46,538 nt of DNA from an uncultured Porphyromonadaceae bacterium (GTDB lineage Bacteria > Bacteroidota > Bacteroidia > Bacteroidales > Muribaculaceae): NCBI GenBank assembly GCA_947174915.1, contig CAMWKV010000002.1, forward strand, positions 1 through 46,538. The letters are read 5' to 3'. A program made the translations under genes and the position numbers. Below, piece after piece: positions 3,493 to 31,785 of the stretch. Under the pieces are notes generated by a model, which did no database searches, had not been told where the DNA came from, and saw only the letters and a program-made list of their open reading frames with translations. The stretch's first letter is position 1, and every line of letters begins with the position of its first letter.

Positions 3493-3549
3493 AATAGTTA
3501 TTCCGGCCAATTCTCGTTACATAGTTTATTATTATAATCCGCTACACAA

Positions 3550-4686: not shown

Positions 4687-4687
4687 T

Positions 4688-5485
4688 ATGAATAAGCCTC
4701 GCATTTCAGTAATTATAGGCATATATAATTGTGCTAACACTTTATGTGAAGCTCTTGATTCGCTCGTTACACAAACTTATCAGGATTTTAAAGTAATAAT
4801 GTGTGAAGATGGATCAAGCGACAACACTATTCAGGTGGCGGAAAGTTATGTAAAACGATTCCCCGAGAAATTTGTACTCATAAGAAATGATAGTAATATG
4901 GGGCTCAATTATACCCTTAATCATTGCTTGGAGTATGTTGATACCGAGTTCGTAGCCAGAATGGATGGGGATGATATTTCTCTGCCCATTCGTTTTGAGA
5001 AAGAAATAGAATTTCTTGATGAGCATCCTGAGATTGCAATAGTCAGTACTCCGATGATTTATTTTGATAATGAGGGGGATTTTAAGATAGGTACCGGGGG
5101 CGACCGTTTCCCGTCCAAAGACGATTTTGTTAAAGGAACCCCATTCTGCCATGCTCCCTGCATGGTTAGGACCGAAGCATATAAAGCTGTCGGTGGTTAT
5201 AGCGTTGATCCTAAATTGCTCCGTGTAGAGGATTATCATCTTTGGTTCAAGATGTATGCCAAGGGGTATAGAGGATACATTCTTCCCGAGCCGCTATATA
5301 AGATGAGAGACGATAGAAATGCTGTAGCTCGTAGGAATTGGCGGAATAGGGTAAACGAATTTCATGTGCGAAGAATTGGTTATCGAATGCTGAATATACC
5401 TTTTATGAAACGTATCCATATGTTTCGACCATTGCTCATAGCACTTTTACCGACACCGTTGTATAACTATCTTCATAAGAGGTAA
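4688..5485 (+). CDS. Family 2 glycosyltransferase
   Basis: PRISVIIGIYNCANTLCEALDSLVTQTYQDFKVIMCEDGSSDNT…, ARMDGDDIS. Confidence 0.92.
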   Translation: MNKPRISVIIGIYNCANTLCEALDSLVTQTYQDFKVIMCEDGSSDNTIQVAESYVKRFPEKFVLIRNDSNMGLNYTLNHCLEYVDTEFVARMDGDDISLPIRFEKEIEFLDEHPEIAIVSTPMIYFDNEGDFKIGTGGDRFPSKDDFVKGTPFCHAPCMVRTEAYKAVGGYSVDPKLLRVEDYHLWFKMYAKGYRGYILPEPLYKMRDDRNAVARRNWRNRVNEFHVRRIGYRMLNIPFMKRIHMFRPLLIALLPTPLYNYLHKR

Positions 5486-5486
5486 T

Positions 5487-6641: not shown

Positions 6642-7252
6642 AACTATACCAGAGTTTCTTTAAACGAGCAATTGATATTCTTGCCTCCGGCGGTGCGTTG
6701 CTTGTCTTATCGGTTCCACTTGCAGCGGTCACAATTTGGCTTCATTACGCCAACAAAGGCGCCGGCGCATTCTTTTTTCAGGAACGTCCCGGAAAGGATG
6801 GAAAGATATTCAAGGTGGTGAAGTTCAAGACGATGACTGACGAACGTGATTCGGAAGGCAATCTGTTGCCTGATGCTGACCGTCTTACAAAGGTAGGTCG
6901 CATAGTCCGCTCGACTTCTATTGATGAGCTACCTCAGCTATGGAATGTTTTGAAAGGCGATATGTCACTTATCGGACCACGACCTCTACTTGTTCAGTAT
7001 CTTCCTCTATACTCAAAAGAGCAGGCGCGACGTCACGAAGTACGTCCCGGTATCACCGGTTGGGCGCAGTGTCACGGTCGCAATGCTATCAGTTGGCAGA
7101 AGAAATTTGAACTGGACGTGTGGTATGTCGATAACATATCTTTTCTTACAGATTGTAAAGTCATCGTTACCACTTTGAAAAAAGTGATACACCAGGAAGA
7201 TATCAACTCGGCCACTGCTGCTACAATGGAAGTATTTAATGGAAACAATTAA
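6638..7252 (+). CDS. Initiating sugar (phosphoglycosyl) transferase, PglC/WcaJ-type catalytic domain
   Basis: FKRAIDILASGGALLVLSVPLAAVTIW, FFQERPGKDGKIFKVVKFKTM, RSTSIDELPQLWNVLKGDMSLIGPRPLLVQYLPLYSKEQARRHEVRPGITGWAQ. Confidence 0.93.
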   Translation: MKLYQSFFKRAIDILASGGALLVLSVPLAAVTIWLHYANKGAGAFFFQERPGKDGKIFKVVKFKTMTDERDSEGNLLPDADRLTKVGRIVRSTSIDELPQLWNVLKGDMSLIGPRPLLVQYLPLYSKEQARRHEVRPGITGWAQCHGRNAISWQKKFELDVWYVDNISFLTDCKVIVTTLKKVIHQEDINSATAATMEVFNGNN

Positions 7253-7832
7253 TCTCTTCGGCGCTAGCGGCCACGCCAAAGTCATCATAGACATCATCGA
7301 AGCTGCCGGCAATAGCGTAGGAGTGTTGTACGATGATGCCCCTTATTGCCGGGGACTCTGCGGAAGGCCGGTTCTTAAAGCGGCAGATACCACAGTGACC
7401 GGTCCAATGATAATATCGATTGGCTCCAATCGTGTACGAAAGATGATATCCGAGCGCTATCCTCTTCCATATGTAAATGCAATACACCCCACCGCAATTA
7501 TCAGCCGAACAGCACATATAGGAGCAGGAACAGTCGTCATGCACGGTGCCACCATTCAGTCCGACTCGAGTATAGGCCGTCATTGCATCATCAATACCGG
7601 CGCCTCAGTCGACCATGAATGTCGTATAGGAGACTATGTTCACATTTCACCCCATGCCACGCTCTGTGGTAATGTTCATGTTGGCGAAGGTTCATGGATC
7701 GGAGCCGGTGCAACGGTAGTACCGGGAATAAAAATAGGCCGCTGGTGTACGATCGGAGCCGGAGCAGTCGTTATCCGAGATATTCCCGATGGAGCAACGG
7801 CTTACGGAAACCCTGCAAAAATTAAACAATAA
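7239..7832 (+). CDS. Left-handed beta-helix sugar O/N-acetyltransferase, PglD/NeuD-like
   Basis: N-terminal INLFGASGHAKVIIDIIEAAG, then hexapeptide repeats (HPTAIISRTAHIGAGTVVMHGATI…SWIGAGATVVPGIKIGRWCTIGAGAVV). Overlaps the upstream CDS. Confidence 0.9.
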   Translation: METINLFGASGHAKVIIDIIEAAGNSVGVLYDDAPYCRGLCGRPVLKAADTTVTGPMIISIGSNRVRKMISERYPLPYVNAIHPTAIISRTAHIGAGTVVMHGATIQSDSSIGRHCIINTGASVDHECRIGDYVHISPHATLCGNVHVGEGSWIGAGATVVPGIKIGRWCTIGAGAVVIRDIPDGATAYGNPAKIKQ

Positions 7833-7848
7833 ATTTTCTTAGAAAACA

Positions 7849-9111
7849 ATGAGCGAAAGAATATTGCTTTGTTTGGCGCATATGTCGGGCAAGGAGCTGG
7901 ATTTTATCAAGGAGGCCTTCGACCAGAACTGGGTAGTGCCTCTGGGTCCGAATGTGAATGGTTTTGAGGCTGATCTCGAGGCTTTTGTCAACGAGCGCGT
8001 TGTCTGCGAACCGCTCCAAAAGAAGGTCGTGGCTCTGTCTGCCGGTACTGCTGCCGTACATCTTGCTCTGATAGCTTGTGGCGTAGGATCCGGAGATGAG
8101 GTGCTTGTGCAGTCGTTCACGTTCTGCGCGTCAAGTCATCCGGTGACATATCTTGGGGCGACGCCCGTATTCGTTGACTCCGAACCGGAGTCCTGGAACA
8201 TGGATCCCGACCTTCTCGAAGAGGCCATCAAGGACCGCATCGCCAAGACCGGAAAGAAGCCCAAGGCTATTATTCCGGTTGCACTCTATGGTATGCCCTA
8301 TAAGATTGACCGTATAATGGAGATTGCGGACAGGTATGAGATCCCTGTCATTGAGGATGCAGCAGAAGGTTTCGGCTCGCGGTATAAGGGGCAAGTTCTC
8401 GGTACTTTCGGTCGCTATGGTGTGCTTTCTTTCAACGGTAACAAGATGATAACTACCTCGGGAGGCGGTGCTCTAATCTGCCCCGACGCTGAGGCTGCCC
8501 GCGAAGTGTTGTGGTACGCTACCCAGGCTCGCGAGAGTTATCCATATTACCAGCACGAAGCGATAGGCTATAACTATCGAATGTCCAACATCTGCGCCGG
8601 CATAGGTCGCGGCCAGATGACTATTCTCGACGAGCATATCGCTCATCATAAGCATGTGCAGGCTCTCTACGAGGAGTTGCTTCGTGATGTAGAAGGTATC
8701 ACCATGCACACTAATCCCGGACCCGACTACGATTCCAACTTCTGGCTCTGTACCGCTACGCTTGCGCCGGAGCTTAGAGTCAAGGGTCAGGAGAATGCCT
8801 ACAAGAAAGTGATTACCGGAGCCGTAGGTGGGGCAGCCGGTGTGACACATGCCGCTGGCTCCGCTGTTACCGATTGCCAGCCGAACGACAACGTGGAAGC
8901 TCTCCGTGTCGCCCTCGATGCTGCTAACATTGAGTCGCGTCCGTTGTGGAAACCTATGCACAAGCAGCCGGTGTATCGCCATAACCCGGCCTACGTCAAC
9001 GGCGTCAGCGAAGCTCTTTTCGCCACCGGCATCTGCCTCCCTGCCGGGCCTTATGTCACCGACGAACAAGTTCGCTACATTGTCGACACAATCAAATCCT
9101 CTCTTCTTTGA
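7849..9111 (+). CDS. DegT/DnrJ/EryC1/StrS PLP aminotransferase (PglE-like)
   Basis: ALSAGTAAVHLALIACGVGSGDEVLVQSFTFCAS, VIEDAAEGFGSRYKG, LSFNGNKMITTSGGGALI (PLP lysine). Confidence 0.93.
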   Translation: MSERILLCLAHMSGKELDFIKEAFDQNWVVPLGPNVNGFEADLEAFVNERVVCEPLQKKVVALSAGTAAVHLALIACGVGSGDEVLVQSFTFCASSHPVTYLGATPVFVDSEPESWNMDPDLLEEAIKDRIAKTGKKPKAIIPVALYGMPYKIDRIMEIADRYEIPVIEDAAEGFGSRYKGQVLGTFGRYGVLSFNGNKMITTSGGGALICPDAEAAREVLWYATQARESYPYYQHEAIGYNYRMSNICAGIGRGQMTILDEHIAHHKHVQALYEELLRDVEGITMHTNPGPDYDSNFWLCTATLAPELRVKGQENAYKKVITGAVGGAAGVTHAAGSAVTDCQPNDNVEALRVALDAANIESRPLWKPMHKQPVYRHNPAYVNGVSEALFATGICLPAGPYVTDEQVRYIVDTIKSSLL

Positions 9112-9146: not shown

Positions 9147-9193
9147 AACAAACGAGGTGCGCCGAAGGAATTGCTTGGCGCACCTCGTTTGTT
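9147..9193 (+). terminator. Strong hairpin terminator at end of the glycan operon
   Basis: Perfect 17-bp stem AACAAACGAGGTGCGCC / GGCGCACCTCGTTTGTT with a 13-nt loop, beginning 35 nt after the aminotransferase stop. Confidence 0.85.
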
Positions 9194-9270
9194 ATGTGTT
9201 GTTATTCGTCGGACGACGTACGGAACCAAATGGCGAACCAATCAGCCTAAGTGGGACTGGGAGTCTGCGT

Positions 9271-9301
9271 TTTGCCGTTTTATGCGAATTTGCTAACTTT
9301 G
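9271..9301 (+). promoter_or_regulatory. Bacteroidetes-type sigma promoter for the beta-lactamase gene
   Basis: TTTG (9271-9274), 19-nt spacer, TAACTTTG (9294-9301; consensus TAnnTTTG), 17 nt before the ATG at 9319. Confidence 0.8.
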
Positions 9302-9318
9302 CTCAAAATCTTTTGAAA

Positions 9319-10287
9319 ATGAAATCCATCCTACTTACCATAATTGTCGCACTTGTGGCTGCTTCGCTTGCTATGGCACAGGTCGTTACCCGGAGTGAGG
9401 CAGAGCCGAATGTCTATAAGGCTGTAGACCATCGTCTGAGTACATCGAATCTTAGCCGTCTGGAGGACGATATCCGCAAATATGCAGAAGATAAAGATGC
9501 GCGTATCGGTGTGGCTGTCATTGTCAATCACACTGATACGGTGGCTTATAACGGTCAGCGCGACTTCCCTATGATGAGCGTGTTTAAATTTCCTCTGTCA
9601 CTCGCCGTAGCTCAATGGGTTGACTCTCGCGGTGCTTCGCTGAACGATTCCATAGCTGTCCGCCCTGAATTTATGAGGGCCAATACCTACAGCCCCATGT
9701 TCGACAAGTATGGCAAAAGTTCTCCGACACTCCCTGTCAGTGAACTCGTCAACTGGTCACTCGTCTATAGCGACAATAATGCCTGCGATATCTTGCTCGA
9801 TCTTATCGGTGGTACCGCTGCCGCTGATTCTTTGTTGACCTCACTTTCTGTCGGTAAGGATATTACCATAGGCGCAACGGAGGCCGAGATGGATGCCGAC
9901 CATTATCTCATTTATCTCAATCGCTCAACGCCTGTAGCCATGGCAGTTCTATTCGATCATTTCGACCGCGAATTGCGCCACCGCTCAGCGAATTTCGGGA
10001 TGATTGCCACGATGCTTGAGCAGTGCAATACCGGTACAGACCGCCTGCCAGCAGCGCTCGACAGCAACGCGACCATCGGACACAAGACCGGAACCGGATT
10101 CACCACTGCCGAAGGACGTCTCACCGCCCTCAACGACTGCGGCTATATACGCTTGCCCGACGGGACGATATATTCCATCGCCATCTTCGTGGCCGATTCC
10201 GGTTACGACATGAACAGCACGGCAAAGATGATAGCCGATATTTCGCGTATCGTTCTCTCTGCTGTGCAGTCCGGAGCGGCCGAGTAG
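9319..10287 (+). CDS. Class A beta-lactamase (subclass A2-like), secreted
   Basis: Start placed at ATG 9319 (signal peptide MKSILLTIIVALVAASLAMA), not the track's 9157. SVFKF (SxxK), SDNNACD (SDN), ATEAEMDADHYL (E166 region) and GHKTGTG (KTG) all present. Confidence 0.9.
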   Translation: MKSILLTIIVALVAASLAMAQVVTRSEAEPNVYKAVDHRLSTSNLSRLEDDIRKYAEDKDARIGVAVIVNHTDTVAYNGQRDFPMMSVFKFPLSLAVAQWVDSRGASLNDSIAVRPEFMRANTYSPMFDKYGKSSPTLPVSELVNWSLVYSDNNACDILLDLIGGTAAADSLLTSLSVGKDITIGATEAEMDADHYLIYLNRSTPVAMAVLFDHFDRELRHRSANFGMIATMLEQCNTGTDRLPAALDSNATIGHKTGTGFTTAEGRLTALNDCGYIRLPDGTIYSIAIFVADSGYDMNSTAKMIADISRIVLSAVQSGAAE

Positions 10288-11242: not shown

Positions 11243-11833
11243 TCAAACGGCCGGGACGAGTCGGAGCTCCTTGGCCATGCGACGCAGGTTCAGGATAGCG
11301 TAGCGCATGCGTCCGAGGGCAGTGTTGATGCTGACTCCGGTGAGCTCGGCAATTTCTTTGAACGACAGGTCGTTGTAGTAGCGCATGTTGAGGACTTCCT
11401 TCTGCACGTCGGGCAGGCGCTCGATGAGTGCGCGGATGTCGGCCTCGGTCTGAAGTTCGATGAGGCTGTCTTCGATATTTTTCTCTGACAGTTCACGACG
11501 GTTGAGGACATCGAGGTTGGCATCATCGGTCGATACGGCACCTTCGGCTTTCTCGGCGCGGAAGGAGTCGATAGCGAGGTTACGTGCTATACGGGTGACC
11601 CAGGCAGCAAACTTGCCCATGTCGTTGTAACGTCCTTGCTTAACGGTGGTGATTACCTTAATGAAGGTCTCCTGGAAGATATCGTCGGCAAGGTCCGAAT
11701 CACGGACTATCTGATATATGTAGTTGTAGAGCCTTGTCTTGTGACGGAGGAGCAGTCGGTCGAATGCTTCGTTGTCACCTGCGGCATAAGCGGCGATCAG
11801 TTGTTCGTCGTTAAGCTCTTTGATATTTCGCAT
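11243..11833 (-). CDS. ECF-type RNA polymerase sigma factor (sigma-70 family)
   Basis: NDEQLIAAYAAGDNEAFDRLLLRH, DSDLADDIFQETFIKVI (region 2), LPDVQKEVLNMRYYNDLSFKEIAELTGVSINTALGRMRYAILNLRR (region 4 helix-turn-helix). Confidence 0.95.
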   Translation of the reverse strand: MRNIKELNDEQLIAAYAAGDNEAFDRLLLRHKTRLYNYIYQIVRDSDLADDIFQETFIKVITTVKQGRYNDMGKFAAWVTRIARNLAIDSFRAEKAEGAVSTDDANLDVLNRRELSEKNIEDSLIELQTEADIRALIERLPDVQKEVLNMRYYNDLSFKEIAELTGVSINTALGRMRYAILNLRRMAKELRLVPAV

Positions 11834-11939: not shown

Positions 11940-11971
11940 CAAAGATAGTAATTATTGCGTGAATGTGCAAA
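11940..11971 (-). promoter_or_regulatory. Promoter of the ECF sigma gene
   Basis: Minus strand TTTG (11968-11971), 20-nt spacer, TATCTTTG (11940-11947). Confidence 0.7.
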
Positions 11972-12018
11972 TGTTTTCGCTCAGGATTTGCAATTTTTAA
12001 CGGGTAGATTACAATAAA

Positions 12019-12044
12019 GAGCCCCTGTACACGTACAGAGGCTC
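12019..12044 (-). terminator. Terminator of the amidase/propeller/NAGPA operon
   Basis: Minus strand GAGCCUCUGUAC…GUACAGGGGCUC stem (one G-U pair) followed by TTTATT, 30 nt after the stop of the last gene. Confidence 0.75.
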
Positions 12045-12074
12045 TCTATGGGATTGTGTATGGGGTGTCTACAA

Positions 12075-14504
12075 TCAGCGGATAGCTACGCGGAGAGTTG
12101 CTTCGCGGCCGTCGGTGCTCTCGATATGGAGGAAGTAGACGCCTGCGCTGAGGGTAGTCACGTCAATGCTGGCGGCTTCGGTGGTGGCTACTGTTGCACC
12201 GGCAGCGTTGATGAGGGTCAGACGCGATACTTCTGCGGGAGCAGAAGCATTGATGACATCGGTGGCGGGGATGGGCCATGCCTGGAAGGCGGCGTCATCG
12301 GAGGCTACGGCGCTCACACCAGCGCTGTCAGAAACGCGGGTGATGTTGTCGATGATGAAGCTGCCGTTCTGAGTGATGGGGCTTGTGGTCTGTACCAGAC
12401 GCATGCCGGTGAGAACATAGGGGAAGCCGGCCTCGAGCATGTCGAGTTTCACCGTACGGTAGTTCCAGCCGCGGAAGTCGAGTTCGCCGAGGGAGGCAAC
12501 TTTCACATCAGTACCGGAGGTAAGGAGCACCTGGAGCTCGTGGCCGTTGAAGTCACCGTTGATGTGTACGCCGAGCTCGTCGCCGTTGTTGAAGATGACA
12601 GGTTCGCCATTGTACTTCCATGTAGCTACACCTTCGCGCTGGGATGCGAACTTGTAGTTCATCTTGGATGCACCGGTGCCGAAGAGGCTTTCCTTCGAGC
12701 GTATAGAGTTGGCGCTGCCACTGATACCCTTGCTGTCGTCGGCGCTGTAGCTGAACATTGCAGTGCTTGCTTCGAAGGTCTCTACAACCTCGGCATCCTT
12801 GCCGGCGTGAGTAGCGTCGATGGCAGTGAATGTGAGGCTGACGGTATTGCCGAGGGGCAGGTTGGTGCGGTCGCGGAGCTCACCATCGAGGGTTACGGTG
12901 TAGGTTTTGCCTTCCTCGAGGTCATCGTTGAGGGCATAGATGATGTTACCGAAACCATTGGAGAGTTTGTTGTAACCGGTGTTGCGGGTATTGATAGCAA
13001 GTTCTTTGCCGTTGCTGTCAGTCACCTTGAATGTGTCGAAGATAGTCTTGCTGTCAACGGTAGCGTCGAAGCGGAATTCGAGAGTGGGCGATGCCATGTG
13101 GATCTCGCCGCCGTCGGCGGGGAAGTTGGACAGAAGTTCAAGACGGTTGCGGTCGAGAGTGGTGAACTCGAACACGAGGTCTTCATTCATGCCGGGGTGC
13201 GAGTAGTTGGCATCTGTATGCTTTGCCGACTTGGCAATGGTGATAGTGTAGTGAGTGTTGCGCTCAAGTGAGAGAGCAGGGTGGAACTCTGCCTTGCGGT
13301 ACGAATCGGAGTAGGTGAAGTAGCCTTCGAGAGCGGGGTTGATGTTGAACGCTGCTTCGAAAGCTTCAACGTCTACGTCGGTGTTGAATTCGAACTTGAG
13401 AGTCTCCGAGCAGGATACGAGCTCACCTTCTGCCGCCTTGGGGCTGTAGGCAGTAATCTCGAAGGGGAATTCGCGCTTGAGAGTAAGAGGCATATCCTGA
13501 TAGGTCACCTCGTTGGCTGTTACGGTTACGGCCTTTTCGAGAGTGTAGTAGCCGTCGTGGCCGGCGCGTACGGTGTAGTTGCCGGGAGCGACGTTGCGGA
13601 ATACGAACGCGCCGTTGTACATATTGTCGGTGGTGCGTGTCTGTACTACATTGCCCTTGTCATCGACGAGTTCGATGGGCGAACCGTTGAGAGGAGCGTT
13701 GGCGTCGCGACCGAACATGGTGAAGTTGGCGGGCTGTACGAATTCGCGGAGGTTGTGGTCGTCATATACGATACCTGCCACGTTGCCGTTCACGAAGCGG
13801 TCTTCAGTGTCGTAGTACTCCATGATAGACTTCACGAAGTGCCATGCTTCGAGCCACAGCACGTCATCATTCATCAGACGGTGTGCTTCGGGACGGTGTT
13901 CGTGCATCGAACCTTCGGAGAGAAGGCCTACAACGTAGAGTGTGCGGAGTACACCGAGGCCACCCTGCCACATATTCTGGTAGAAGTCAAGGTCACCTAC
14001 CACATATTCTTTGTCGCGGGTCCAGATGGGCAGCTTGCTCGAGTAGAGATTCTTCCACATGATTTTGCTGAGCGTCACATTACCCTCATAGCGGGGTACG
14101 CCGATCTCATTCTCGCGATAGAGCATCAGAGGGGTGTTGACGTTCTCACCTGCGTTGGAGTGGATAGAGAAGAAAAGGTCTACGCCGAGGTTATTGGCTT
14201 CGGCAGCAATGCCTGACAGCGAACGGTCGTCGTCCTCGGTATTTTTGATACGCGAGAGGTAAGGCTTTGCTCCCAGCGAGTCGAGGATGTGGTACATGTG
14301 CAGACCTTTGTAGAGGTTACTGGTTGATTCCCAGTAGCCTGCAGTGTCATTGCGTTCGAAGGGGTAGATCTGTATGGGACGGTCGTTGCCGGTGTAGCCG
14401 CCGTGACCCGGATTGATGTAGATCTTAAGGTCGCTCATTTTCTTGGCCGAAGCACCGGTGGCAACGGCAACGATAGCGAGCAGAAGTATGAATATACGTT
14501 TCAT
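12075..14504 (-). CDS. Secreted N-acetylmuramoyl-L-alanine amidase (Amidase_3) with Ig-like domains and T9SS-type C-terminal domain (paralog A)
   Basis: Signal peptide; IYINPGHGG, GYWESTSN, FFSIHSNAG (Zn-site H/E/H) and LLSEGSMHEH (catalytic Glu); carboxypeptidase-regulatory-like and two Big_5-like segments; C-terminus AWPIPATDVINA…RLTLINAAGATV…LSAGVYFLHIES…ATLRVAIR. Confidence 0.88.
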   Translation of the reverse strand: MKRIFILLLAIVAVATGASAKKMSDLKIYINPGHGGYTGNDRPIQIYPFERNDTAGYWESTSNLYKGLHMYHILDSLGAKPYLSRIKNTEDDDRSLSGIAAEANNLGVDLFFSIHSNAGENVNTPLMLYRENEIGVPRYEGNVTLSKIMWKNLYSSKLPIWTRDKEYVVGDLDFYQNMWQGGLGVLRTLYVVGLLSEGSMHEHRPEAHRLMNDDVLWLEAWHFVKSIMEYYDTEDRFVNGNVAGIVYDDHNLREFVQPANFTMFGRDANAPLNGSPIELVDDKGNVVQTRTTDNMYNGAFVFRNVAPGNYTVRAGHDGYYTLEKAVTVTANEVTYQDMPLTLKREFPFEITAYSPKAAEGELVSCSETLKFEFNTDVDVEAFEAAFNINPALEGYFTYSDSYRKAEFHPALSLERNTHYTITIAKSAKHTDANYSHPGMNEDLVFEFTTLDRNRLELLSNFPADGGEIHMASPTLEFRFDATVDSKTIFDTFKVTDSNGKELAINTRNTGYNKLSNGFGNIIYALNDDLEEGKTYTVTLDGELRDRTNLPLGNTVSLTFTAIDATHAGKDAEVVETFEASTAMFSYSADDSKGISGSANSIRSKESLFGTGASKMNYKFASQREGVATWKYNGEPVIFNNGDELGVHINGDFNGHELQVLLTSGTDVKVASLGELDFRGWNYRTVKLDMLEAGFPYVLTGMRLVQTTSPITQNGSFIIDNITRVSDSAGVSAVASDDAAFQAWPIPATDVINASAPAEVSRLTLINAAGATVATTEAASIDVTTLSAGVYFLHIESTDGREATLRVAIR

Positions 14505-15331
14505 CAGTCGTTAAGGTTGAAAATGAACATATTGCCTGTAACGTCGGCTACTACTACTGTGCCGTCGCCGGCAGCTGTGGCTTCGCCTACAAGCATATCT
14601 TCGGGTGTGAGATAAGTGATTTCGCCGGAACGGGTATCTACGGCCACGAGACGGGAGTCAAGGACCACATAGCCGTCATCGTGTGTGATGATGGCAACGA
14701 TAGTGTGCTCGCCGGCCCAGGTGGGGTTGTCGCCCTTGCGGAGCAGACGACGTGCGTTGGAGCCGTCGGCATCAGCGATGAAGACGCCCTTGAAGGGCTC
14801 GCTGAAAAGCAGTTGCTTATTGTCGGCCGAGAGAGAGGCCCAGAGATAGGAATGACTGTCGGCGATGGGATTGACGCTGACATCCTTGCCGTCGAGGCTC
14901 ACGCGGATAGTATTGTAGTCATCCACGGCATAGTTGCCGCCGCGGAAGGCTGCCATGTCCACCTTGTCGCGGCTCATGGGGCTCACCTTGTGCATGTTGC
15001 GGGTGTCGAAGGAGTAGGAACGTACGTCGCGGTAGAGCAGATTGTCCTTCATCTCGGCTGTGCGGTAATATACCGTACGGCTGTCGGTGGTGAACACAGG
15101 GTTGAAACCGGCAGCTGCACCGGCATCGATGAGCGATGTCTCGCCGGTGGCCATGTTCATAGCCTTGAGGCCATCATGTGTGTCGGTAGAGTAGAGCAGG
15201 GTGGTGCCATCGGGACTGAGGACGGGGTGATGTGCTCCTGCGGGGAGATTGAGCGGCTTTAATGGCAATTCACCATAGGCCCCTATTGCGAGACCTATGG
15301 TGAGTGCCGCTGCCAATAAGCGGTGTTTCAT
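14504..15331 (-). CDS. Secreted TolB/WD40-like beta-propeller protein (paralog A)
   Basis: Repeated HPVLSPDGTTLLYSTDTHDGLKAM, FNPVFTTDSRTVYYRT, YLWASLSADNKQLLFSE, GDNPTWAGEHTIVAI blades; signal peptide. 1-nt overlap with the amidase gene. Confidence 0.78.
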   Translation of the reverse strand: MKHRLLAAALTIGLAIGAYGELPLKPLNLPAGAHHPVLSPDGTTLLYSTDTHDGLKAMNMATGETSLIDAGAAAGFNPVFTTDSRTVYYRTAEMKDNLLYRDVRSYSFDTRNMHKVSPMSRDKVDMAAFRGGNYAVDDYNTIRVSLDGKDVSVNPIADSHSYLWASLSADNKQLLFSEPFKGVFIADADGSNARRLLRKGDNPTWAGEHTIVAIITHDDGYVVLDSRLVAVDTRSGEITYLTPEDMLVGEATAAGDGTVVVADVTGNMFIFNLND

Positions 15332-15357
15332 TGTGATTGGCTATTGTTTACAGATAA

Positions 15358-17745
15358 TTAGCGATTGATGACGATGCGACGGGCTGAGCGACCCTGTGCA
15401 GTGTTGACGAGAGCGATGTAGTGACCTTCGCCAATGCCACCGAGGTAGAGGGCATTGCCCTTGGTAGTTGCTACGGTGCGGCCCTGGAGATCAACGAGGG
15501 CTACAGATTCAATCATGCAGTCGGCGTTGGCAACAACATAGTCGGGAGTTACCTTAACGGTAAGGCCGCCTACTTCTACGTTCTCTACGCCGGCGCTACC
15601 CTTGAGGTATACGCGGTCAACACCGATAGTACCGGTAGAGCTCTGGAGAGCTGCGTTCTGTACTACCTTGACGCCACGGAAGGTGTAAGGTGCATCGCCT
15701 TCGAGTTCTACCATGGGTACGTCGAATGTACGCCAGCCGATGAAGTTGAGGTCGGCTACATGGACGAATTTCTCGGCAGTCTCGGAGCTGAAGAGGAAGT
15801 AGAGACCGTTCTCGGAGAGATCGCCGTTGATATGCACGGTGATGATGTCGGCGGTAGTCACAGTAGTGGGATTCTCCTCGGAGGTGTTCCAGAGGATTTC
15901 GCCGCCTTCATTGTCCTCGAAGGTATAGGTGAAGTTGACAGCCTTGCTGAAGAGTGCAGTCTTGGAGTCGGTGGCAAGTTTCTGCGATTTCACCTTGGCG
16001 GACTGCTCCTCGTTGTAGGCGAATACGGCGTGGTTGTCAATTTCGCTGATGAGGCCGCCTTCTTTCTCAGTACCGGCGTCGCAAGCCTTGAAGGTCACGT
16101 CAACGGGTTCCTTGATGGTCAGACCGTCGTTGTCGGCGAGTTCACCGTCGAGGTGGATGGTGTAGGACTTACCGGGTACGAGCTCGTTGGTGAAGGGTAC
16201 GCGGAAGTAGCCATAGGAAAGGCTGGCCTTCGAGGTGGTCATGCTGCGGGTGTTGAAGAGTACGGTGTTGCCGTCTTCATCCTTGCAGGAGATCTGCTGG
16301 GGCAGCTTGTTGAAGTTGGGGCGCTTGTCGAAGCGGAACTCTACTGCAGCGTTCTTGTAGTGTACGCTCTCACCTGCCTTGGGCGACTGACCGATGATAT
16401 CCATGAAGTTGCGGTCGGTGGTGAGGAAGCTGAACACGAGGGGCTCGGCAAGGTTCATATTGCCGGGGTGAGCGGCTGCGGTGGAGAGGGTTACGGTGTA
16501 CTTGGTGCTGATGTTGTAGGGCTCCGAGGGAGTGAATACCATACGGTAGTTGAGATCTTCCCAGGTGATGGTACCCTTCACGGCAGGCTCGATGGAGAAT
16601 GCAGCGGCGGTAGCCTCAGTATCCATATCCCAGTTGAAGTCGAATACGATGGGAGCGTTGCAGAGCACGCCTTCATCGCCTTCGTTCCATACGGGAGAGT
16701 AGGCGAGTACCTCGGGGGCGGTAGAACGAACTTTGTTCAGCTTGAAGTTGGCATAAGTTACACGGTCGGCTTCAACTACTACGGTAGCCTCGTCGTCATA
16801 GTGTGTGTCAACTTTGGTCTTGACTGTGTAGGTGCCGGGCTGGAGGTTTTTGAAACCGTAAACACCGTTGACGTGGATGGGGTCGGTAGTATATGTATCA
16901 AGAAGTTTGCCGTCAGCATCATAGAGTTCTACCGTGGCATTCTGGATGGTAGCGTAGGTGTCATCGCCGAACATCATATAAGTGCCGGGACGGGGGCTGC
17001 GACTGTCGTTAAGACGGCCGAAGATGTGGCCTACAGTTTCTCCGGGCTGATTGAAGTATTCGTCGATAGTGCGGCGGAAGTGATATGCTTCGAGCCAGCA
17101 GAAATCTTTGCTCATCAGACGGTAAGCCTCGGGAATGTAGTCGTGGAAGGAGCCCTCAGAGAGCATACCTGTCACGGTGAGTCCACGGAGTACGCCGAGA
17201 CCGGAGGTACCCCAGCTCTTATAGAAGTCCCAGTCACCACGGCAGTTAGTGGCAGTGCTGGTCCAGTAAGTTACCTCATTCTCAAGCAGGTGCTTGTTCA
17301 GAATTCCAGCTACCACCTTATCCTCAGGCTTCACGGGATCATTATCATAGCCGCGGTAAAGCATAAGAGGGAAGTTGCGGCGGGCTGTAGTACCAGTTGC
17401 ATTCGAGTGGATGGAAAAGAATATATCAGCCTGATACTTGTTGGCAAGCGAGCTGATGGTGCTAAGACCCAGGTCGTCAGCAGTAGTGTTGGTTACGCGC
17501 GACATCTCTACGCTGTAGCCGTCGGCTAACAGTATATCGCGCAGCGCAAGACCTTTCTCAAGGTTAGAATTAGACTCCCAGTAACCTTCAGGATCGCCCT
17601 GCTTGTAAGGTTCGATTACCACATTACGGTCATCTGAGTCGTGACCGCCGTGACCGGGGTTGATGTAGACCTTAATACCATTGCCGGCCGATGCGCCGAG
17701 GATACCGGCACATGCCATCATCAATAATAAAGATTGCTTTTTCAT
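15358..17745 (-). CDS. Secreted N-acetylmuramoyl-L-alanine amidase (Amidase_3) with Ig-like domains and T9SS-type C-terminus (paralog B)
   Basis: VYINPGHGGHDSDDRN, GYWESNSNLEKGL, FFSIHSNATG, MLSEGSFHDY; same architecture as 12075..14504; C-terminus VALVDLQGRTVATTKGNALYLGGIGEGHYIALVNTAQGRSARRIVINR. Confidence 0.88.
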   Translation of the reverse strand: MKKQSLLLMMACAGILGASAGNGIKVYINPGHGGHDSDDRNVVIEPYKQGDPEGYWESNSNLEKGLALRDILLADGYSVEMSRVTNTTADDLGLSTISSLANKYQADIFFSIHSNATGTTARRNFPLMLYRGYDNDPVKPEDKVVAGILNKHLLENEVTYWTSTATNCRGDWDFYKSWGTSGLGVLRGLTVTGMLSEGSFHDYIPEAYRLMSKDFCWLEAYHFRRTIDEYFNQPGETVGHIFGRLNDSRSPRPGTYMMFGDDTYATIQNATVELYDADGKLLDTYTTDPIHVNGVYGFKNLQPGTYTVKTKVDTHYDDEATVVVEADRVTYANFKLNKVRSTAPEVLAYSPVWNEGDEGVLCNAPIVFDFNWDMDTEATAAAFSIEPAVKGTITWEDLNYRMVFTPSEPYNISTKYTVTLSTAAAHPGNMNLAEPLVFSFLTTDRNFMDIIGQSPKAGESVHYKNAAVEFRFDKRPNFNKLPQQISCKDEDGNTVLFNTRSMTTSKASLSYGYFRVPFTNELVPGKSYTIHLDGELADNDGLTIKEPVDVTFKACDAGTEKEGGLISEIDNHAVFAYNEEQSAKVKSQKLATDSKTALFSKAVNFTYTFEDNEGGEILWNTSEENPTTVTTADIITVHINGDLSENGLYFLFSSETAEKFVHVADLNFIGWRTFDVPMVELEGDAPYTFRGVKVVQNAALQSSTGTIGVDRVYLKGSAGVENVEVGGLTVKVTPDYVVANADCMIESVALVDLQGRTVATTKGNALYLGGIGEGHYIALVNTAQGRSARRIVINR

Positions 17746-17758
17746 GGGTTATGCCGGA

Positions 17759-18652
17759 TTATTTGTTGAGTTTTACAGTCATTTGATACATGCGACCGTC
17801 GATAGTGTTGTACACTACTTTCTGCGCAGCTACAGACGCTGCGGGATTCATGGTCATGCTCTCGGGAGTTGTGAGGTCCTGACGTTGCTTGCCGTCGAGG
17901 CTTACGAGGACAATCTGGGAGGAGCTGTACTGGTGACCGTCGTCGGTGGAGTTCTGGGCTACGATGTAGTCGTTGCCGTACCACTGGGGATTCTCGAAGT
18001 TGCCGGGAGTAGCGAGGACGTTGCCGTTGAGGTCGGTGATAACGATGCCCTTGCCGGCAGCGAAGAACATTACTTTCTGACCATCGGGCGAGAAGGATTC
18101 CCACAGATAGCCGGCTTCGGAAGCAACGGGGCTGTAGGCGCGCTCTACGCCATTGGTAGTAATATATAAGGTAGAACCTTCGGTGCGCACAGCCTTGGCT
18201 GCGGACTTGCCGATGGAGCGACGCTTGCCGTCGATGGCGGTGTTCATGGCAGTGCCGTCGATGTAGGGACGTTCGATGAAGCGTGCGGGGGCGGTGAGGT
18301 TGGCGTTGGCACCGGCTCCGATGTCATACTTGCGGAGCTGACGCATGATCAGGCCGTTGTCATTCACCTTCTGGGCAATGTACACTACGGTGTTGCCGGC
18401 GAACTGAGCACCGTAGCCGGCACCGGCTTCGTCGCAGATGAGACTGGACTCACCGACGTTGAAGTCGTACATGCGGAGATTCGAGAAGTCGGAAGCCGAG
18501 TAGAGCAGCTTGGTACCGTCGGCGCTGAGGATGGGATTGTACAGCTCGCCGCGTACGTCCTGCAAGAGGGCTTCGGGGGCCGATACAGTGGCTATCTGTG
18601 CTTGTGCACCTATAGCGATGGCGATACCGGCCAGTGCAAGAAATCGTTTCAT
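17759..18652 (-). CDS. Secreted TolB/WD40-like beta-propeller protein (paralog B)
   Basis: YNPILSADGTKLLYSASDFSNLRMYD, YGAQFAGNTVVYIAQ, YLWESFSPDGQKVMFFAAG, FENPQWYGNDYIVAQNSTDDGH; parallels the 14504..15331 protein blade for blade. Confidence 0.78.
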   Translation of the reverse strand: MKRFLALAGIAIAIGAQAQIATVSAPEALLQDVRGELYNPILSADGTKLLYSASDFSNLRMYDFNVGESSLICDEAGAGYGAQFAGNTVVYIAQKVNDNGLIMRQLRKYDIGAGANANLTAPARFIERPYIDGTAMNTAIDGKRRSIGKSAAKAVRTEGSTLYITTNGVERAYSPVASEAGYLWESFSPDGQKVMFFAAGKGIVITDLNGNVLATPGNFENPQWYGNDYIVAQNSTDDGHQYSSSQIVLVSLDGKQRQDLTTPESMTMNPAASVAAQKVVYNTIDGRMYQMTVKLNK

Positions 18653-18685
18653 ATTATAGTAAGGTTTATTAGTTTGCTATGGGTA

Positions 18686-21223
18686 TCAGCGTACAATGAG
18701 TACGGAAGCCGACTGACCGGCAGCCGATACAGTGCGGATGATGTATGTTCCGGCAGTAGCGGGAGCCTTGACGGTAGCTTCGGCGCCGGAGCATGCGGTG
18801 CTCGACAGAAGTGCGCCTGCTGTGCTGAGGATATCTACAGTTTTGAGGGCGGTGCCGCATACAGTCACGTCGCCGCCGGCTGCTACGGGGTTGGGGCTTA
18901 CGAGCACTCGAGCGCCGTCGGCTGCCACGGATTCTACACCGGAGTAGTTGGTGTACTTACCCCAGATGCGCGAGATGTTGATGGTGTGGTCACCCTTGTT
19001 GGCAGCATCTGTGGTGGTGTAGAAGCGGAGGTAGTTGAGGCTTACGGGATAGGTGGCGAGGTCGTCGCGACCGAAGATGCCGTCGAGCGGGAGACTGATG
19101 GCATGCTTGGTGCCGGCAGCGAAGCTATCGCCGGTAGCGGGCTCTACGAATACCTCATTAGCTTTGGTCACCATGTTGGAGCGCATATCTGCGGAAACCT
19201 TTGCCATGGGAGCGGAGGCGGTGAACTCAATGCAGATTTCATCGGGCAGCGAGTAGAATGTAGATACACCGGTGAGCTGGATGTAGGGATTACGGGGCGA
19301 GCCGTAGGTGAAACCGATGGCGTTGCCGTCAAAGGTGACGTTGGTGATACCGCTGGCACCCTTGGCGCTCCAGTCAGCGAGACCGGTCATGTCGAGTTCG
19401 GGAGCATTGCTCTCTTCTACAGTTACTTCAGCGCTGTCGGAGAAGTTGCCGATGGTACCGGTGAGCACTGCTGTACCTTCTGCAAGGGCGGTAAGGGTAC
19501 CGTTGGCGTCAACAGCGATGACATCGGGATTGTCGACAGTCCATACTACAGAAGCGGGGTCGTAGTTGAACACCTTCGAGCCGATAGTGGCGGAAATTTC
19601 GATGGGGTAAGAACGATGCATGTCGAGGTGAATCTTCTTCATGCGAAGGCCGAGTTCGGCGTTCATCACTTTGATGTTAGTTGTCGCGGTCACATCACCC
19701 ACAGTAGCTGTGATGACGCCTTCGTAGGCTTCACCGGCAGCAGTGAGGGTGTTGCCTGTGCAAGTACCGGCCTCGGCAGGACAGCTCAGGGTGTAGTCGC
19801 GGTAGTCGTAGCTTATCACGCTGCCATAGCGGTTGTAGGCAATTACTTTGGGCGAGATGGTAGCGTAGACGGGAGTCTCCACCAGGCGCTCATCGAAGGC
19901 GAGCGATGCTACAGTGTTGTAGTACTCGGCATCTTCGGGAGCGATGGAGTAGACGAGCCAGCCATTGGCTACGGCACGGGGCTTGTCCTCGGTAGTCTTG
20001 TTCTCGATACGACCGTTGATCATCATCTCGGCACTGCCGCCGGCATCGAAGTTGGCCATATAGGAGCAGCCGAGGGAGCGTGCAAATTCACACATCACAT
20101 TGGTGCCACAGCCTGCCGAACGACCATACTCGGGATCGGTACTCTTGTCGATTACTACGATATAGACAGTCTTGCCGTCGGCAGAGCAGCCGTAGCCGGT
20201 ACGCGAGTACACCTGGCTGTTGTATGTCTCATTGGTATTATGTGCGGTGAGTTCACCGGCGCGCATCACAAGTGCATTGGGGCCTACAGCCTGCTCAACG
20301 AGAGGAGTTACTTCGTTCTCGCTGCCGGGATTGTAAGTCCAGGTGTATTTGAGGGTGACGATATCGCCGGGCTGGAGAGCTGCAATCTGCTCGCGGTTGG
20401 CGCCACGGCCCACGAGAGCGAGGTCGTGATTGCCAAGAGTGCCTTTGCCGGCATCTTTGCGTACTTCTACTACTTTGAAGTTGATGTCGCGGCCGCTGTT
20501 CCATGCCTCGCCTTCGACGAAGTCAAGAATTACCTCGGTAGCATCGCCGCCGTTGTCCTTATAGTACTTGCCACCGGTCACGACGATGGGGAGGAACTGG
20601 GTGTTAGCACCGTAGAAGCTGTTGTACATCGACAGCTCATCGTCGTGGATACCCTTGTTGCACTGGTGCACGGTCATGGTGCCGATGCGGTCGGAAGTAA
20701 CGGTGATATCAGAGGTACAGTAGTCGATATATGCGGTCTTGTCATAGCTCAGAGCTACTACGCCCGAACGCATTGTGCCGCCGTCCCACTTGTCGCGGTG
20801 CTGGTTGGATTCTACCACCATCTTGCCATTACGGATTGAAGCGTTGCGTGCAATACCGGTGTATGTATTCTCCTCGGGCTGCGTGCCTACTACCCAGAAG
20901 TTGGCATTAGCACCGCCCACGGCACGATGGCTCTCATACGACTGGCGGTTGCCGGCTGTTACAAGACTCTCGGTGCCACGTGAATTCTCGTTGGCAGTAG
21001 TGGTCTCAATGCGGTTGTAGGGGTTGGTGAGATCAACGGTAAGGACGTTGATATTCAGAGGATAAGCGGGGAGGCGATAGCGTGTGTGACGGATACCGGG
21101 ACCAATCTGTCGGTCGGTCTTAATCTCTACTTCATAGTCTTTGCCTACCAGATTGACAGTTTCGGCCATCGAGGGCAGAACAGTGGCTCCGGATAGGGTT
21201 AAAAGGAGTAAAAGTTTATTCAT
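18686..21223 (-). CDS. Phosphodiester glycosidase (NAGPA/DUF2233) with Ig-like (Big_2) domain and T9SS-type C-terminus
   Basis: AVGGANANFWVVG, RSGVVALSYD, FLPIVVTGG, AVGPNALVMRAGELTAHN…QVYSRTGYGCSADGKTVYIVVIDKS…FARSLGCSYMANFDAGGSAEMMINGRIENKT…RAVANGWLVY (the NFDAGGSxxMxxNG motif is typical of NAGPA). Big_2-like DNPDVIAVDANGTLTALAEGTAVLTGTIG. C-terminus VSPNPVAAGGDVTV…VDILSTAGALL…AGTYIIRTVSAAGQSASVLIVR. Confidence 0.88.
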   Translation of the reverse strand: MNKLLLLLTLSGATVLPSMAETVNLVGKDYEVEIKTDRQIGPGIRHTRYRLPAYPLNINVLTVDLTNPYNRIETTTANENSRGTESLVTAGNRQSYESHRAVGGANANFWVVGTQPEENTYTGIARNASIRNGKMVVESNQHRDKWDGGTMRSGVVALSYDKTAYIDYCTSDITVTSDRIGTMTVHQCNKGIHDDELSMYNSFYGANTQFLPIVVTGGKYYKDNGGDATEVILDFVEGEAWNSGRDINFKVVEVRKDAGKGTLGNHDLALVGRGANREQIAALQPGDIVTLKYTWTYNPGSENEVTPLVEQAVGPNALVMRAGELTAHNTNETYNSQVYSRTGYGCSADGKTVYIVVIDKSTDPEYGRSAGCGTNVMCEFARSLGCSYMANFDAGGSAEMMINGRIENKTTEDKPRAVANGWLVYSIAPEDAEYYNTVASLAFDERLVETPVYATISPKVIAYNRYGSVISYDYRDYTLSCPAEAGTCTGNTLTAAGEAYEGVITATVGDVTATTNIKVMNAELGLRMKKIHLDMHRSYPIEISATIGSKVFNYDPASVVWTVDNPDVIAVDANGTLTALAEGTAVLTGTIGNFSDSAEVTVEESNAPELDMTGLADWSAKGASGITNVTFDGNAIGFTYGSPRNPYIQLTGVSTFYSLPDEICIEFTASAPMAKVSADMRSNMVTKANEVFVEPATGDSFAAGTKHAISLPLDGIFGRDDLATYPVSLNYLRFYTTTDAANKGDHTINISRIWGKYTNYSGVESVAADGARVLVSPNPVAAGGDVTVCGTALKTVDILSTAGALLSSTACSGAEATVKAPATAGTYIIRTVSAAGQSASVLIVR

Positions 21224-21304: not shown

Positions 21305-21312
21305 CAAAGGTA
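21305..21312 (-). promoter_or_regulatory. -7 element upstream of the five-gene NAGPA/amidase operon
   Basis: Minus strand TACCTTTG (TAnnTTTG consensus); no good -33 TTTG at canonical spacing. Confidence 0.45.
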
Positions 21313-23284: not shown

Positions 23285-26080
23285 TTACTCGGCTTGCATG
23301 ATGATGGAGGATTTGTGTGCGGGCAGGACGGTGTCGCGGACAAAGGCGGCGACGGTCTCGGGGCTCAGGGCTTCCACGGCGGCTCGGTAGGTGTTGTGCA
23401 TGTCCATGCCGTCGCGTTCGTAGGATTTGATTACCTTCAGCCAGTAGGCATTGTCTGTGGCACTTTCATCGAAACTCTTCAGTAGGAATTCCTTGATTCC
23501 GGCCACTTCTTCCGCGCTGATTACTGTAGCATCGGCCATCTCTTTGATGGTGGCATTGACGATGTCGAGGGTTGCCTGCTCATAGCCCGGTTGTACTTTG
23601 ATATTGGTGGGCATGAGGAGGCTGGGACCACCCGTAGCACTCAGGCCCGGATTGATGCCGGCATGTGTACGGATAGAGTAGGTCCAGCCGCGGCTCTCGC
23701 GCAGGTCGGCGAGAAGTCGGTTGCGCAGGAGTTGGCCGAAGACAGCGGCGTTGAGGATGTTGTCCAGCGTGTAGGCTGCGGGGCCGCTATAGAAGTTGTA
23801 CACGAAACCCTGGGGATTCTCCATTTGACGCGAGAAGAGCAGTTGGAAATCGTAGGGAGTGAAGTCGTAGCCGAAATCGATGGCGCTTTCCTTGCGACCG
23901 GCGCCCGGGAGGCTCGCGATGTACTGCTCAAGACAGTTGGTGAGGCTGTCGGTATTGAAGTCACCCACTACCATGAAGGTGAAGTCGGACATGTCGCCAT
24001 AGCGGTCCTTATACACTTCGAAGGCTCTACCCATGCTTATATTATCCACATCCTCGGCCTTCATTCGGGCGGCAAGGGGATGGTGGTTGTAGATAGCGTG
24101 GTGGATGGAGTCGCCGAAGGCCTGCGAGGGATTGTATTTCTTGTGCGATACGCTGTTGCGCTGATTGTCAATGAAGGTACGGAAGGCGACGCTGTCGGGT
24201 TCGAAGGCAGTGGCGCGGAGGTACAGCAGCCCGAAAGCCATGTCCATATCGTCGGCGGTTGTAGCGGCTTCGATACCTTCTTCGTTATTGCCTACGGAGG
24301 CACTTACTTTCACATTGTGACCCGTGGTGATGCGGCGTATATCGGCAGCGGTATGACCGCCATGTTTCATCTCACCCATGAGCTCGTTGACTACCCGGAG
24401 GGTAGCCACATCGTCGTTGCGGTAGTTGAGCGACAGACCGCCGGGGCTATAGCCGCGTATGTACACCTGGCCGGGCTTGTAGTCTGTGTGTTTGGCTATT
24501 ACCTTGATGCCGTTAGAAAGGGTGTAGACCTTGGCGTCGAAGAGCGCGAGGCTGTCGGTGGCAACGATAGAGCCTCGCACAGGGAGGGTTTCGAAGAGCT
24601 TGTCGGCCGATTTAAGCATAGGCGAGTAAGGCTCGTACTGACGGGCGAAAGCGGTGTCGACGGCAGCACGAAGCAATGCCTCGTCTTCGCTGTCTGTGAG
24701 TTCATTCTTGGGGCGATAGTGCAGAATCACAGCTCCGCGGCCACGTGGGTAGAGAAGGCTCTCGATGTATCCTTTGATGTCCTCAGGTGTAATGGTCTCA
24801 GCTGTAGCAACGACACTGTCGCGGACGGCAGCAGCACTGATTTGCTGACCTCCGTCGAGATAGTGACGGACAGCCTGCTTGGCCAGTACGGTGTTTGACG
24901 GGTTGGCGTGCGTGCGAAGGTGTTCGTCGGCACCGTTGACGAGATTCTCGCGGGCTCGCACCACTTCGTCCTCGCCTATGCCATGTTGGATGACGCGCAC
25001 CAGTTCACCGTACCATGCCTTGACGGCATCGGCAGCGCGACCGGCCTTGACAGGCCCGCGCATGGTGAAGGCTTGTTCACCGCCGGCCATGAAATACTTG
25101 GTCTTGCCCAGGGCGAGCGATAGATGAGGGCAGTCGTCGGAGGCTTCGAGTACTTCAAAACGGTCCACGAGGATGTTGCCTGTCATTTCGGAGAGAGCGT
25201 GGGTGCGGAAGGAGTCGTCGGACGACACTCGCCAGTAGAGCTGAAGCATCTCCGAGCCCTGCTCGGGATCCGACTCGACAGCGCATATCAGACTGTCGGC
25301 GACGGGTACGACGGGGCGATGTGATTTCTGCGATAGGGCCGAGCGCTTGGCGGGAATAGCGCCGAAGAGTTTCTTTATCTCTATCTCGGTGCTGTCGAGG
25401 TCGATGTCGCCTACGATGATAACAGCCTGATTGACGGGTACATTCCAGCGATCGTAGAAGCGGCGTAGTACCTCGGGTTTGAAGTTTTCCACCACTTCCA
25501 TCTTGCCTATGGGCATGCGCTCCCCGTAGGCCGAGCCGCCGTAGAGTTTAGCGGAGGCACGCTCGAGCATACGATTAGTCGCCGACGAGCGCTGACGGGC
25601 CTCGCTGACGATGACACCACGTTCGGCGTCAATGTCTTCCGGACGCAGCAGGATGCCGCACGACCAGTCGCGGAGGATGAGCATGCACGAATCGATCGAG
25701 CCCTGGCGCACTGTCGGTGCTTTGCATATATTGTAGACAATCTCGTCGGTCGATGTGTAGGCGTTGAGATGTGCACCGAATTTCACACCTATGCTTTCAA
25801 GATAGGTAATGAGTGAATTGCCGGGGAAATGTTCAGTGCCGTTGAAACACATGTGCTCCAGAAAGTGGGCCAGACCGCGCTGGTCGTCATCCTCGAAGGC
25901 CGAACCCACGCTCTGTGCCAGGAAGTAGTCGGCTGTACCGCGAGGGTTTTCGTTGTGTTGCAGATAGTAAGTCATGCCGTTGTCGAGGACGCCGGTTCGT
26001 ACTGCCGGATCAAGATCGGCGGCAAGTGCAGCAAACGTCGTGCCAAAGGCTATGGCAGTTGCAGTTAGTAATCTTTTCAT
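23285..26080 (-). CDS. Secreted M16-family (pitrilysin/insulinase-like) zinc metalloprotease
   Basis: Signal peptide; LAHFLEHMCFNGT (HxxEH), downstream Glu in GVIVSEARQRS; two-lobed ~930-aa M16 architecture. Confidence 0.93.
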   Translation of the reverse strand: MKRLLTATAIAFGTTFAALAADLDPAVRTGVLDNGMTYYLQHNENPRGTADYFLAQSVGSAFEDDDQRGLAHFLEHMCFNGTEHFPGNSLITYLESIGVKFGAHLNAYTSTDEIVYNICKAPTVRQGSIDSCMLILRDWSCGILLRPEDIDAERGVIVSEARQRSSATNRMLERASAKLYGGSAYGERMPIGKMEVVENFKPEVLRRFYDRWNVPVNQAVIIVGDIDLDSTEIEIKKLFGAIPAKRSALSQKSHRPVVPVADSLICAVESDPEQGSEMLQLYWRVSSDDSFRTHALSEMTGNILVDRFEVLEASDDCPHLSLALGKTKYFMAGGEQAFTMRGPVKAGRAADAVKAWYGELVRVIQHGIGEDEVVRARENLVNGADEHLRTHANPSNTVLAKQAVRHYLDGGQQISAAAVRDSVVATAETITPEDIKGYIESLLYPRGRGAVILHYRPKNELTDSEDEALLRAAVDTAFARQYEPYSPMLKSADKLFETLPVRGSIVATDSLALFDAKVYTLSNGIKVIAKHTDYKPGQVYIRGYSPGGLSLNYRNDDVATLRVVNELMGEMKHGGHTAADIRRITTGHNVKVSASVGNNEEGIEAATTADDMDMAFGLLYLRATAFEPDSVAFRTFIDNQRNSVSHKKYNPSQAFGDSIHHAIYNHHPLAARMKAEDVDNISMGRAFEVYKDRYGDMSDFTFMVVGDFNTDSLTNCLEQYIASLPGAGRKESAIDFGYDFTPYDFQLLFSRQMENPQGFVYNFYSGPAAYTLDNILNAAVFGQLLRNRLLADLRESRGWTYSIRTHAGINPGLSATGGPSLLMPTNIKVQPGYEQATLDIVNATIKEMADATVISAEEVAGIKEFLLKSFDESATDNAYWLKVIKSYERDGMDMHNTYRAAVEALSPETVAAFVRDTVLPAHKSSIIMQAE

Positions 26081-26122
26081 CAGTGATTTATGATGTCAGT
26101 TATATTAATGCTATGAGAGATG

Positions 26123-31706: not shown

Positions 31707-31718
31707 GATTGTAGACCG

Positions 31719-31726: not shown

Positions 31727-31785
31727 CGAAATAATTTGGCGTCAAGCAATACTCACGATTAAGTATTTGTGTCACGCTTGCACTG

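Follow-up and report, generated by a model that had tools for sequence, protein, structure and literature searches.

Which gut bacteria dismantle the walls of other bacteria, and how they do so, is an open question. A window of 46,538 nucleotides (the whole stretch of DNA that was analysed) from an uncultured member of the Muribaculaceae contains five genes for predicted secreted proteins. We consider it probable that these genes form an exported peptidoglycan-dismantling module that feeds the scavenging of murein sugars, and the module names likely genes for such a task. The gene set, its conservation, a gene fusion, the sorting domains, the intact catalytic residues and the neighbouring genes on which this reading is based were all computed.

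All five open reading frames lie on the minus strand between positions 12075 and 21223, in the order given in a preliminary description of this DNA, which had not said which strand: NAGPA (phosphodiester glycosidase), propeller B, amidase B, propeller A and amidase A. Gaps between successive genes, recomputed from the coordinates, came to 33, 13, 26 and -1 nt, matching those reported earlier, and the remaining structural claims—an N-terminal signal sequence on every product, a TAnnTTTG element before the first gene and a terminator after the last—also held on re-examination. The signal sequences were judged by eye, from hydrophobic N-termini and signal-peptide-like cleavage motifs. The TAnnTTTG element, TACCTTTG (21305-21312, minus strand), is of the Bacteroidota -7 type and sits 82 nt upstream of the NAGPA start; its candidate role as a promoter draws its one support from this position, and the motif occurs in the window at chance level (19 found vs 15.9 expected). 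The terminator-like hairpin (12014-12049, minus strand), downstream of amidase A, has a 17-bp stem that is 88% complementary, a 2-nt loop and a T-rich stretch after it; an automatic terminator scan overlooked it, probably because the loop is only 2 nt long. Directly downstream of the operon lies a gene for a sigma-70-family (ECF-like) factor (11243-11833, minus strand), with its own TAnnTTTG at 11940-11947.

Amidase B (15358-17745, minus strand) matched the Amidase_3 profile PF01520 at 53 bits (cut-off 27) and carries CarboxypepD_reg/SdrD-like, two Big_5 and beta-sandwich domains, followed by a C-terminus resembling those sorted by the type IX secretion system (T9SS). Its paralogue, amidase A (12075-14504, minus strand), scored 26.9 bits against PF01520 with hmmscan and 29.9 bits in a search of the genome, matching over the N-terminal half only, and contains Big_5 (65.8 bits) and a T9SS sorting domain. 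These Ig-like, CarboxypepD_reg-like and sorting domains had gone unmentioned in the preliminary description, which had correctly reported that both amidases keep their zinc-site and catalytic residues: the zinc ligands H32, E57 and H113 and the catalytic E197 (amidase B numbering) are invariant in 64/64 aligned relatives, and the first three of the four align with Cwp6. Both enzymes are predicted to cleave the MurNAc-L-Ala bond.

Each amidase is preceded by a gene for a TolB-like PD40 beta-propeller—propeller B at 17759-18652 and its paralogue, propeller A, at 14504-15331, both on the minus strand—with PD40 scores of 20.1 bits (below the cut-off) and 23.3 bits, respectively. BLASTP aligned the amidases at 35% identity and the propellers at 30% identity, which makes the second propeller-amidase pair an old tandem duplicate, a point that the preliminary description had missed. 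We rejected the idea that either propeller is TolB itself, as they scored 24.9 and 26.6 bits against TIGR02800, where 343 are required. Propeller B has a signal-peptide-like N-terminus, and neither a T9SS tail nor a lipobox cysteine was seen in it; among 55 relatives of the propellers, none matched the sorting profile TIGR04183.

The propellers, which make up half of the repeated unit, had been left without an explanation in the earlier interpretation. The same genome has four further amidases of the operon type outside this contig, and in every case the gene immediately upstream encodes a propeller; a propeller profile search of the genome returned six strong matches, which were exactly the amidase-paired genes, one to one, together with one weak match. 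Outside the six paired amidases, a profile search found three further Amidase_3 genes, which could serve the cell’s own wall. We scanned 85,488 genomes, one per species, with the amidase alone as query and recovered 79 loci, in which 101 of the 102 amidases had a propeller directly upstream (73) or fused to them (28); in the sole exception, the locus is cut by the end of a contig. The fused form is found in the Paludibacteraceae, where propeller and amidase make up one protein with the propeller N-terminal. One-to-one pairing and fusion are strong evidence that propeller and amidase are physical partners. The separate propellers have no sorting domain and the fused propeller is part of the same exported-type polypeptide; propellers may act in the periplasm or may leave with the amidase, serving in the latter case as a guide to the substrate or in the former as a periplasmic chaperone or an inhibitor that protects the cell’s own wall. 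Foldseek with a model of the fused protein added no information on the propeller, because Ig-like arrays swamped the list of matches.

A same-strand NAGPA gene lies -4 to 116 nt upstream of 53 of the approximately 72 units that do not stand behind another unit, where we estimate that chance would place about 0.2 (from approximately five NAGPA genes per 1,900 or so genes). The loci carry the labels Muribaculaceae, Barnesiella, Dysgonomonadaceae, Paludibacter and Paludibacteraceae; in loci from Prolixibacteraceae and Marinilabiliaceae a GHL10 gene comes between NAGPA and the propeller-amidase unit, and loci labelled Caldithrix and Caldisericaceae have the propeller-amidase pair without NAGPA, the Caldisericaceae locus also including GHL10. 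Most of the 79 loci come from metagenome assemblies, and because related loci share ancestry, the counts do not represent independent events; selection is nonetheless suggested by the fusion, by the GHL10 gene inserted in some loci and by flanks that differ from locus to locus. Absence of the neighbourhood beyond close relatives had been named beforehand as the result that would count against a functional unit, and its recurrence across the 79 loci instead speaks for one.

Where do these proteins act? An indication comes from the C-termini. Amidase A scored 38.6 bits against TIGR04183 (curated cut-off 23) and so has a clear type A sorting domain, while the last 100 residues of amidase B and NAGPA, at 19.6 and 20.7 bits, fell below the cut-off; with signal peptides judged by eye, amidase A is the one clear candidate for T9SS type A cargo. 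Among relatives, TIGR04183 was found at an E-value of 0.05 in 34/49 amidases and 30/48 NAGPAs, counted on C-termini only and replacing whole-protein counts, because the best-scoring whole-protein stretch of amidase B is its CarboxypepD_reg region. The genome encodes the T9SS sortase PorU (NF033707, 829.8 bits, cut-off 420). Enrichment of the secretion system was dropped as evidence, with the sortase present in 179/198 genomes of the order vs 29/31 genomes with the module; near-universal in the order, it permits export without being evidence of enrichment. Two PorU-like sortase genes (829.8 and 417.8 bits) are adjacent on contig C15 of the genome (1381-9281), and genomes of the order commonly have a second copy.

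Members of the Paludibacteraceae often have a different ending: in loci L082, L094, L096, L097 and others, NAGPA and the fused amidase both end in a short tail of the pattern NGxLxIxxxGxxYxxxGxxxK where the T9SS domain would otherwise be. Tail types agree in 59/65 NAGPA-amidase pairs (43 sorting-domain-like and 16 short); in each of the other six one tail was unclassified, and no pair mixes the two types. The short tail is possibly an alternative sorting signal, a suggestion confounded by shared ancestry. Export of the operon’s proteins out of the cell, as proposed in the preliminary description, gains support from sorting domains that had not been noticed there, and we treat it as predicted from sequence.

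These findings bear on one rival explanation, under which the proteins would remain periplasmic and work on the cell’s own peptidoglycan during division or turnover. The TolB-like propeller would then regulate them in space, in a manner similar to the connection of Tol-Pal with DigH in E. coli. The weak resemblance of the propellers to TolB and their want of sorting tails would suit such a role, as would the discovery of DigH as a suppressor of E. coli tol-pal defects (PMC12288456). We nevertheless judge this account improbable, given the T9SS tails on NAGPA, the amidases and one GHL10 copy (the one tested for this), the availability of the three other Amidase_3 genes for housekeeping and the uptake and kinase genes among the neighbours described below. 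The amidase family is also patchy, unlike a division gene, occurring in 62/198 species of its own family and in 6/198 of an order-wide sample, both figures being possible undercounts, as few first-look candidates were scored per genome.

The genes around the module suggest what it works on. Clustering of the flanking genes revealed two recurring arrangements. The first, GHL10 - secreted protein - NAGPA - propeller::amidase, is mostly from Paludibacteraceae, with an unfused form in Dysgonomonadaceae and Paludibacter. The second, from Muribaculaceae and Barnesiella, reads (NAGPA) - propeller - amidase - kinase - large Golvesin_C/fn3 protein - GT2 - DUF4922 - SpoIID - AmpG-like - NamZ, the full row being present in few loci and partial rows in others. 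Of the module loci, 25 have a GHL10 gene, 18 a MurNAc-kinase relative, 13 SpoIID, six an AmpG-like gene and five NamZ. Pfam confirmed GHL10, SpoIID, NamZ_N and DUF4922. The kinase is weak in Pfam, yet matches two PDB entries strongly, 8oqk (386 bits) and 8ow7 (385 bits); according to PMC10465942, 8ow7 is the Tannerella forsythia MurNAc kinase K1058 with MurNAc. The AmpG-like permease had no Pfam match at an E-value of 0.001 and a weak match to muropeptide transporters of known structure. For the neighbouring GHL10, the best PDB match was Cwp19 (265 bits), a GHL10 protein that is a peptidoglycan lytic transglycosylase (PMC6016235), and a SpoIID homologue cuts denuded glycan (PMC6635528). These conserved neighbours point to peptidoglycan as the target, in agreement with the preliminary description.

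In the window itself, no murein-sugar kinase, permease or NamZ gene lies beside the operon; kinase and permease genes were seen beside the module in relatives. Neither of the genome’s two NamZ genes lies in the window; one belongs to a conserved block elsewhere. Contig C68 carries the large protein, GT2, DUF4922, SpoIID and NamZ as such a block. Nor does a SusC/SusD pair adjoin the operon in the window; a SusD-like gene adjoins the module in locus L086. Elsewhere in the genome, on contig C32 (L118, 129-10684), a GHL10 gene lies near SusC/SusD-like genes (by eye), a possible peptidoglycan utilisation locus.

This company also weighs on a second rival, that the operon is built for attack and not for feeding: an antibacterial weapon against Gram-positive neighbours, in which NAGPA would strip the teichoic acid armour and the amidases lyse the cell, with the propeller as an immunity protein for the own wall. 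In its favour are the surface export signals on the amidases and NAGPA, the one dedicated propeller without a sorting tail per amidase, and the existence of proteins, predicted to act in inter-bacterial conflict, that combine NAGPA, TelC and NlpC/P60 domains (PMC12419801). However, the neighbours are catabolic—the MurNAc-kinase relative, AmpG, NamZ, GHL10 and the epimerase-like enzyme described below—fusion of propeller to amidase in the Paludibacteraceae would be odd for a simple immunity protein, and no polymorphic toxin features were seen. We rate a weapon as improbable. The earlier interpretation stands in part: a conserved unit, peptidoglycan and export are supported, and context favours scavenging over attack, although both could hold.

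NAGPA is the first gene of the operon (18686-21223, minus strand). Its product matches PF09992 at 56 bits (cut-off 25) and has Ig-like domains, including Big_2; towards the C-terminus come a beta-sandwich and a tail that weakly resembles T9SS type A. A structure model (pLDDT 91) found 3ohg, 6ozd and the vertebrate uncovering enzymes in Foldseek, with target TM-scores of 0.54-0.67 for 3ohg and the uncovering enzymes, and residues N106, R341, D359, D393 and G395-S397 are conserved and align with the uncovering enzyme. To our knowledge, no natural substrate has been established for any bacterial member of the family. The vertebrate enzyme acts on GlcNAc-P-mannose, a phosphodiester at C6 of the mannose, and takes off the GlcNAc (PMC12024695). 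In wall teichoic acids, a phosphodiester likewise connects the polymer to MurNAc, at its C6-OH, and TagO starts the linkage unit from GlcNAc-phosphate (PMC7831098). Because the two bonds are chemically parallel, the linkage unit is the most economical substrate to propose, and by this analogy NAGPA probably removes a phosphodiester-linked glycan such as wall teichoic acid.

Of the genome’s five NAGPA genes, three adjoin three different sets of peptidoglycan enzymes, and the two of these outside the operon support the link to peptidoglycan. Contig C114 carries an SGNH esterase, GHL10 and a NAGPA paralogue in a row; NAGPA-GHL10 adjacency as a general feature of the genus was rejected, this copy being alone in the sample. 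Contig C25 (L020, 3183-9503) carries a NAGPA paralogue, a transglutaminase, an NlpC/P60 protein (best PDB match dipeptidyl-peptidase VI, 157 bits) and an epimerase-like enolase-superfamily enzyme, whose matches include L-Ala-D/L-Glu epimerases and which is probably one itself; the row is likely to be a murein-peptide degradation operon. Such neighbours, and the adjacency of NAGPA to the amidase unit in several families, weigh against the proposal that NAGPA acts within the same wall-degrading set on something other than teichoic-acid linkage units, such as capsular or O-glycan phosphodiesters. That proposal concerns the NAGPA step alone, is compatible with the rest of our explanation and deserves serious weight, though we lean against it. 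In its favour, NAGPA domains occur in many bacteria, including Gram-negative and thermophile control genomes, the family’s lack of an established bacterial substrate leaves room for it, and NAGPAs of the window’s class have DAGGSA where others have DGGGSS.

For the scavenging module as a whole, we infer the following substrates, order and site of action and role for the propellers. NAGPA and the two amidases would be made with signal peptides and be taken across the outer membrane by the type IX secretion system. Once outside, NAGPA would hydrolyse a sugar-1-phosphodiester, most likely the GlcNAc-1-P-6-MurNAc bond that anchors wall teichoic acid and polymers like it in peptidoglycan, or else another phosphodiester-linked wall glycan. 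The amidases would next remove stem peptides from MurNAc, leaving peptide-free (denuded) glycan strands; denuded glycan produced by amidases is the substrate of SpoIID and DigH-type enzymes (PMC6635528, PMC12288456). These strands would be cut to murein sugars by GHL10, SpoIID and NamZ, whose genes adjoin the module in relatives and are found at other sites in the present genome. AmpG-like transport and kinases of the MurK type would bring the sugars into metabolism. The propeller would be a dedicated amidase-binding partner that guides the enzyme to its substrate or holds it safe in the periplasm before export. A stronger version, that secreted Bacteroidales NAGPA proteins cut GlcNAc-1-P-6-MurNAc and so free whole teichoic acids and related polymers from foreign peptidoglycan, teamed with a propeller-guided amidase, is put forward tentatively, as a conjecture that we would sooner expect to fail than to hold. 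If it held, neither the enzyme activity nor the pathway by which cell walls are scavenged in the gut would have been recognised before.

Among the closest known systems is MurNAc scavenging in Tannerella forsythia (MurT-MurK-MurQ, K1058, NamZ1/2 and AmpG), also of the Bacteroidales, with which the module would share murein sugars as end product; module clusters of relatives contain a close relative of the MurNAc kinases together with NamZ and AmpG-like genes. It differs in that the first steps here are proposed to occur outside the cell by means of T9SS enzymes, and the passages of PMC10465942 consulted make no mention of a NAGPA-propeller-amidase unit. Cwp19 of Clostridioides difficile is a glycan-cutting GHL10 enzyme like the neighbouring one, and DigH of E. 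coli degrades denuded glycans, but both act on the own wall, whereas in the module loci a GHL10 gene accompanies those for amidase and NAGPA. The vertebrate uncovering enzyme and Bacteroides ovatus BACOVA_00430 (3ohg) share NAGPA’s fold and its N, R, D and DxGGS residues, and GlcNAc-1-P-6-sugar cleavage has its chemical parallel in the teichoic-acid linkage unit; the operon’s protein, of predicted function, differs by additional Ig-like domains, a sandwich domain and a tail of T9SS-like type. The Bacillota NAGPA-TelC-NlpC/P60 proteins likewise combine NAGPA with wall-acting enzymes and beta-propellers, but as single large proteins, where the operon has separate genes for T9SS-type cargo in a catabolic setting. 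TolB of Tol-Pal is a PD40 beta-propeller with weak profile similarity to those of the operon, which differ in reaching some 25 of 343 bits and in being encoded beside, or fused to, amidases.

No description of the five-gene set was found in the open-access literature on NAGPA, DUF2233, T9SS amidases and Muribaculaceae amidases, and it is probably an unrecognised wall-scavenging system. The module represents a conserved T9SS-linked amidase system in Bacteroidales of the gut and rumen, associated with genes for MurNAc uptake. It suggests a substrate on which bacterial NAGPA enzymes can be tested, and it pairs propeller and amidase so closely that the two have become fused in some loci. If our reading is true, it would link removal of wall polymers, supply of muropeptides and host immune signalling.

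Other genes in the window deserve brief mention. A polysaccharide biosynthesis cluster (387-9111, plus strand) encodes a UDP-GlcNAc 2-epimerase (wecB), a sugar-phosphate transferase, a LegC-like aminotransferase and apparent glycosyltransferases. Next to it lies a class A beta-lactamase-like gene (9157-10287, plus strand), scoring 208 bits for class A (cut-off 200) and 261.7 bits for subclass A2 (cut-off 320). At 23285-31775, on the minus strand, an M16 peptidase, a DUF6850 protein, a lipoprotein-like protein and a TonB-dependent receptor-like protein are encoded in a row.
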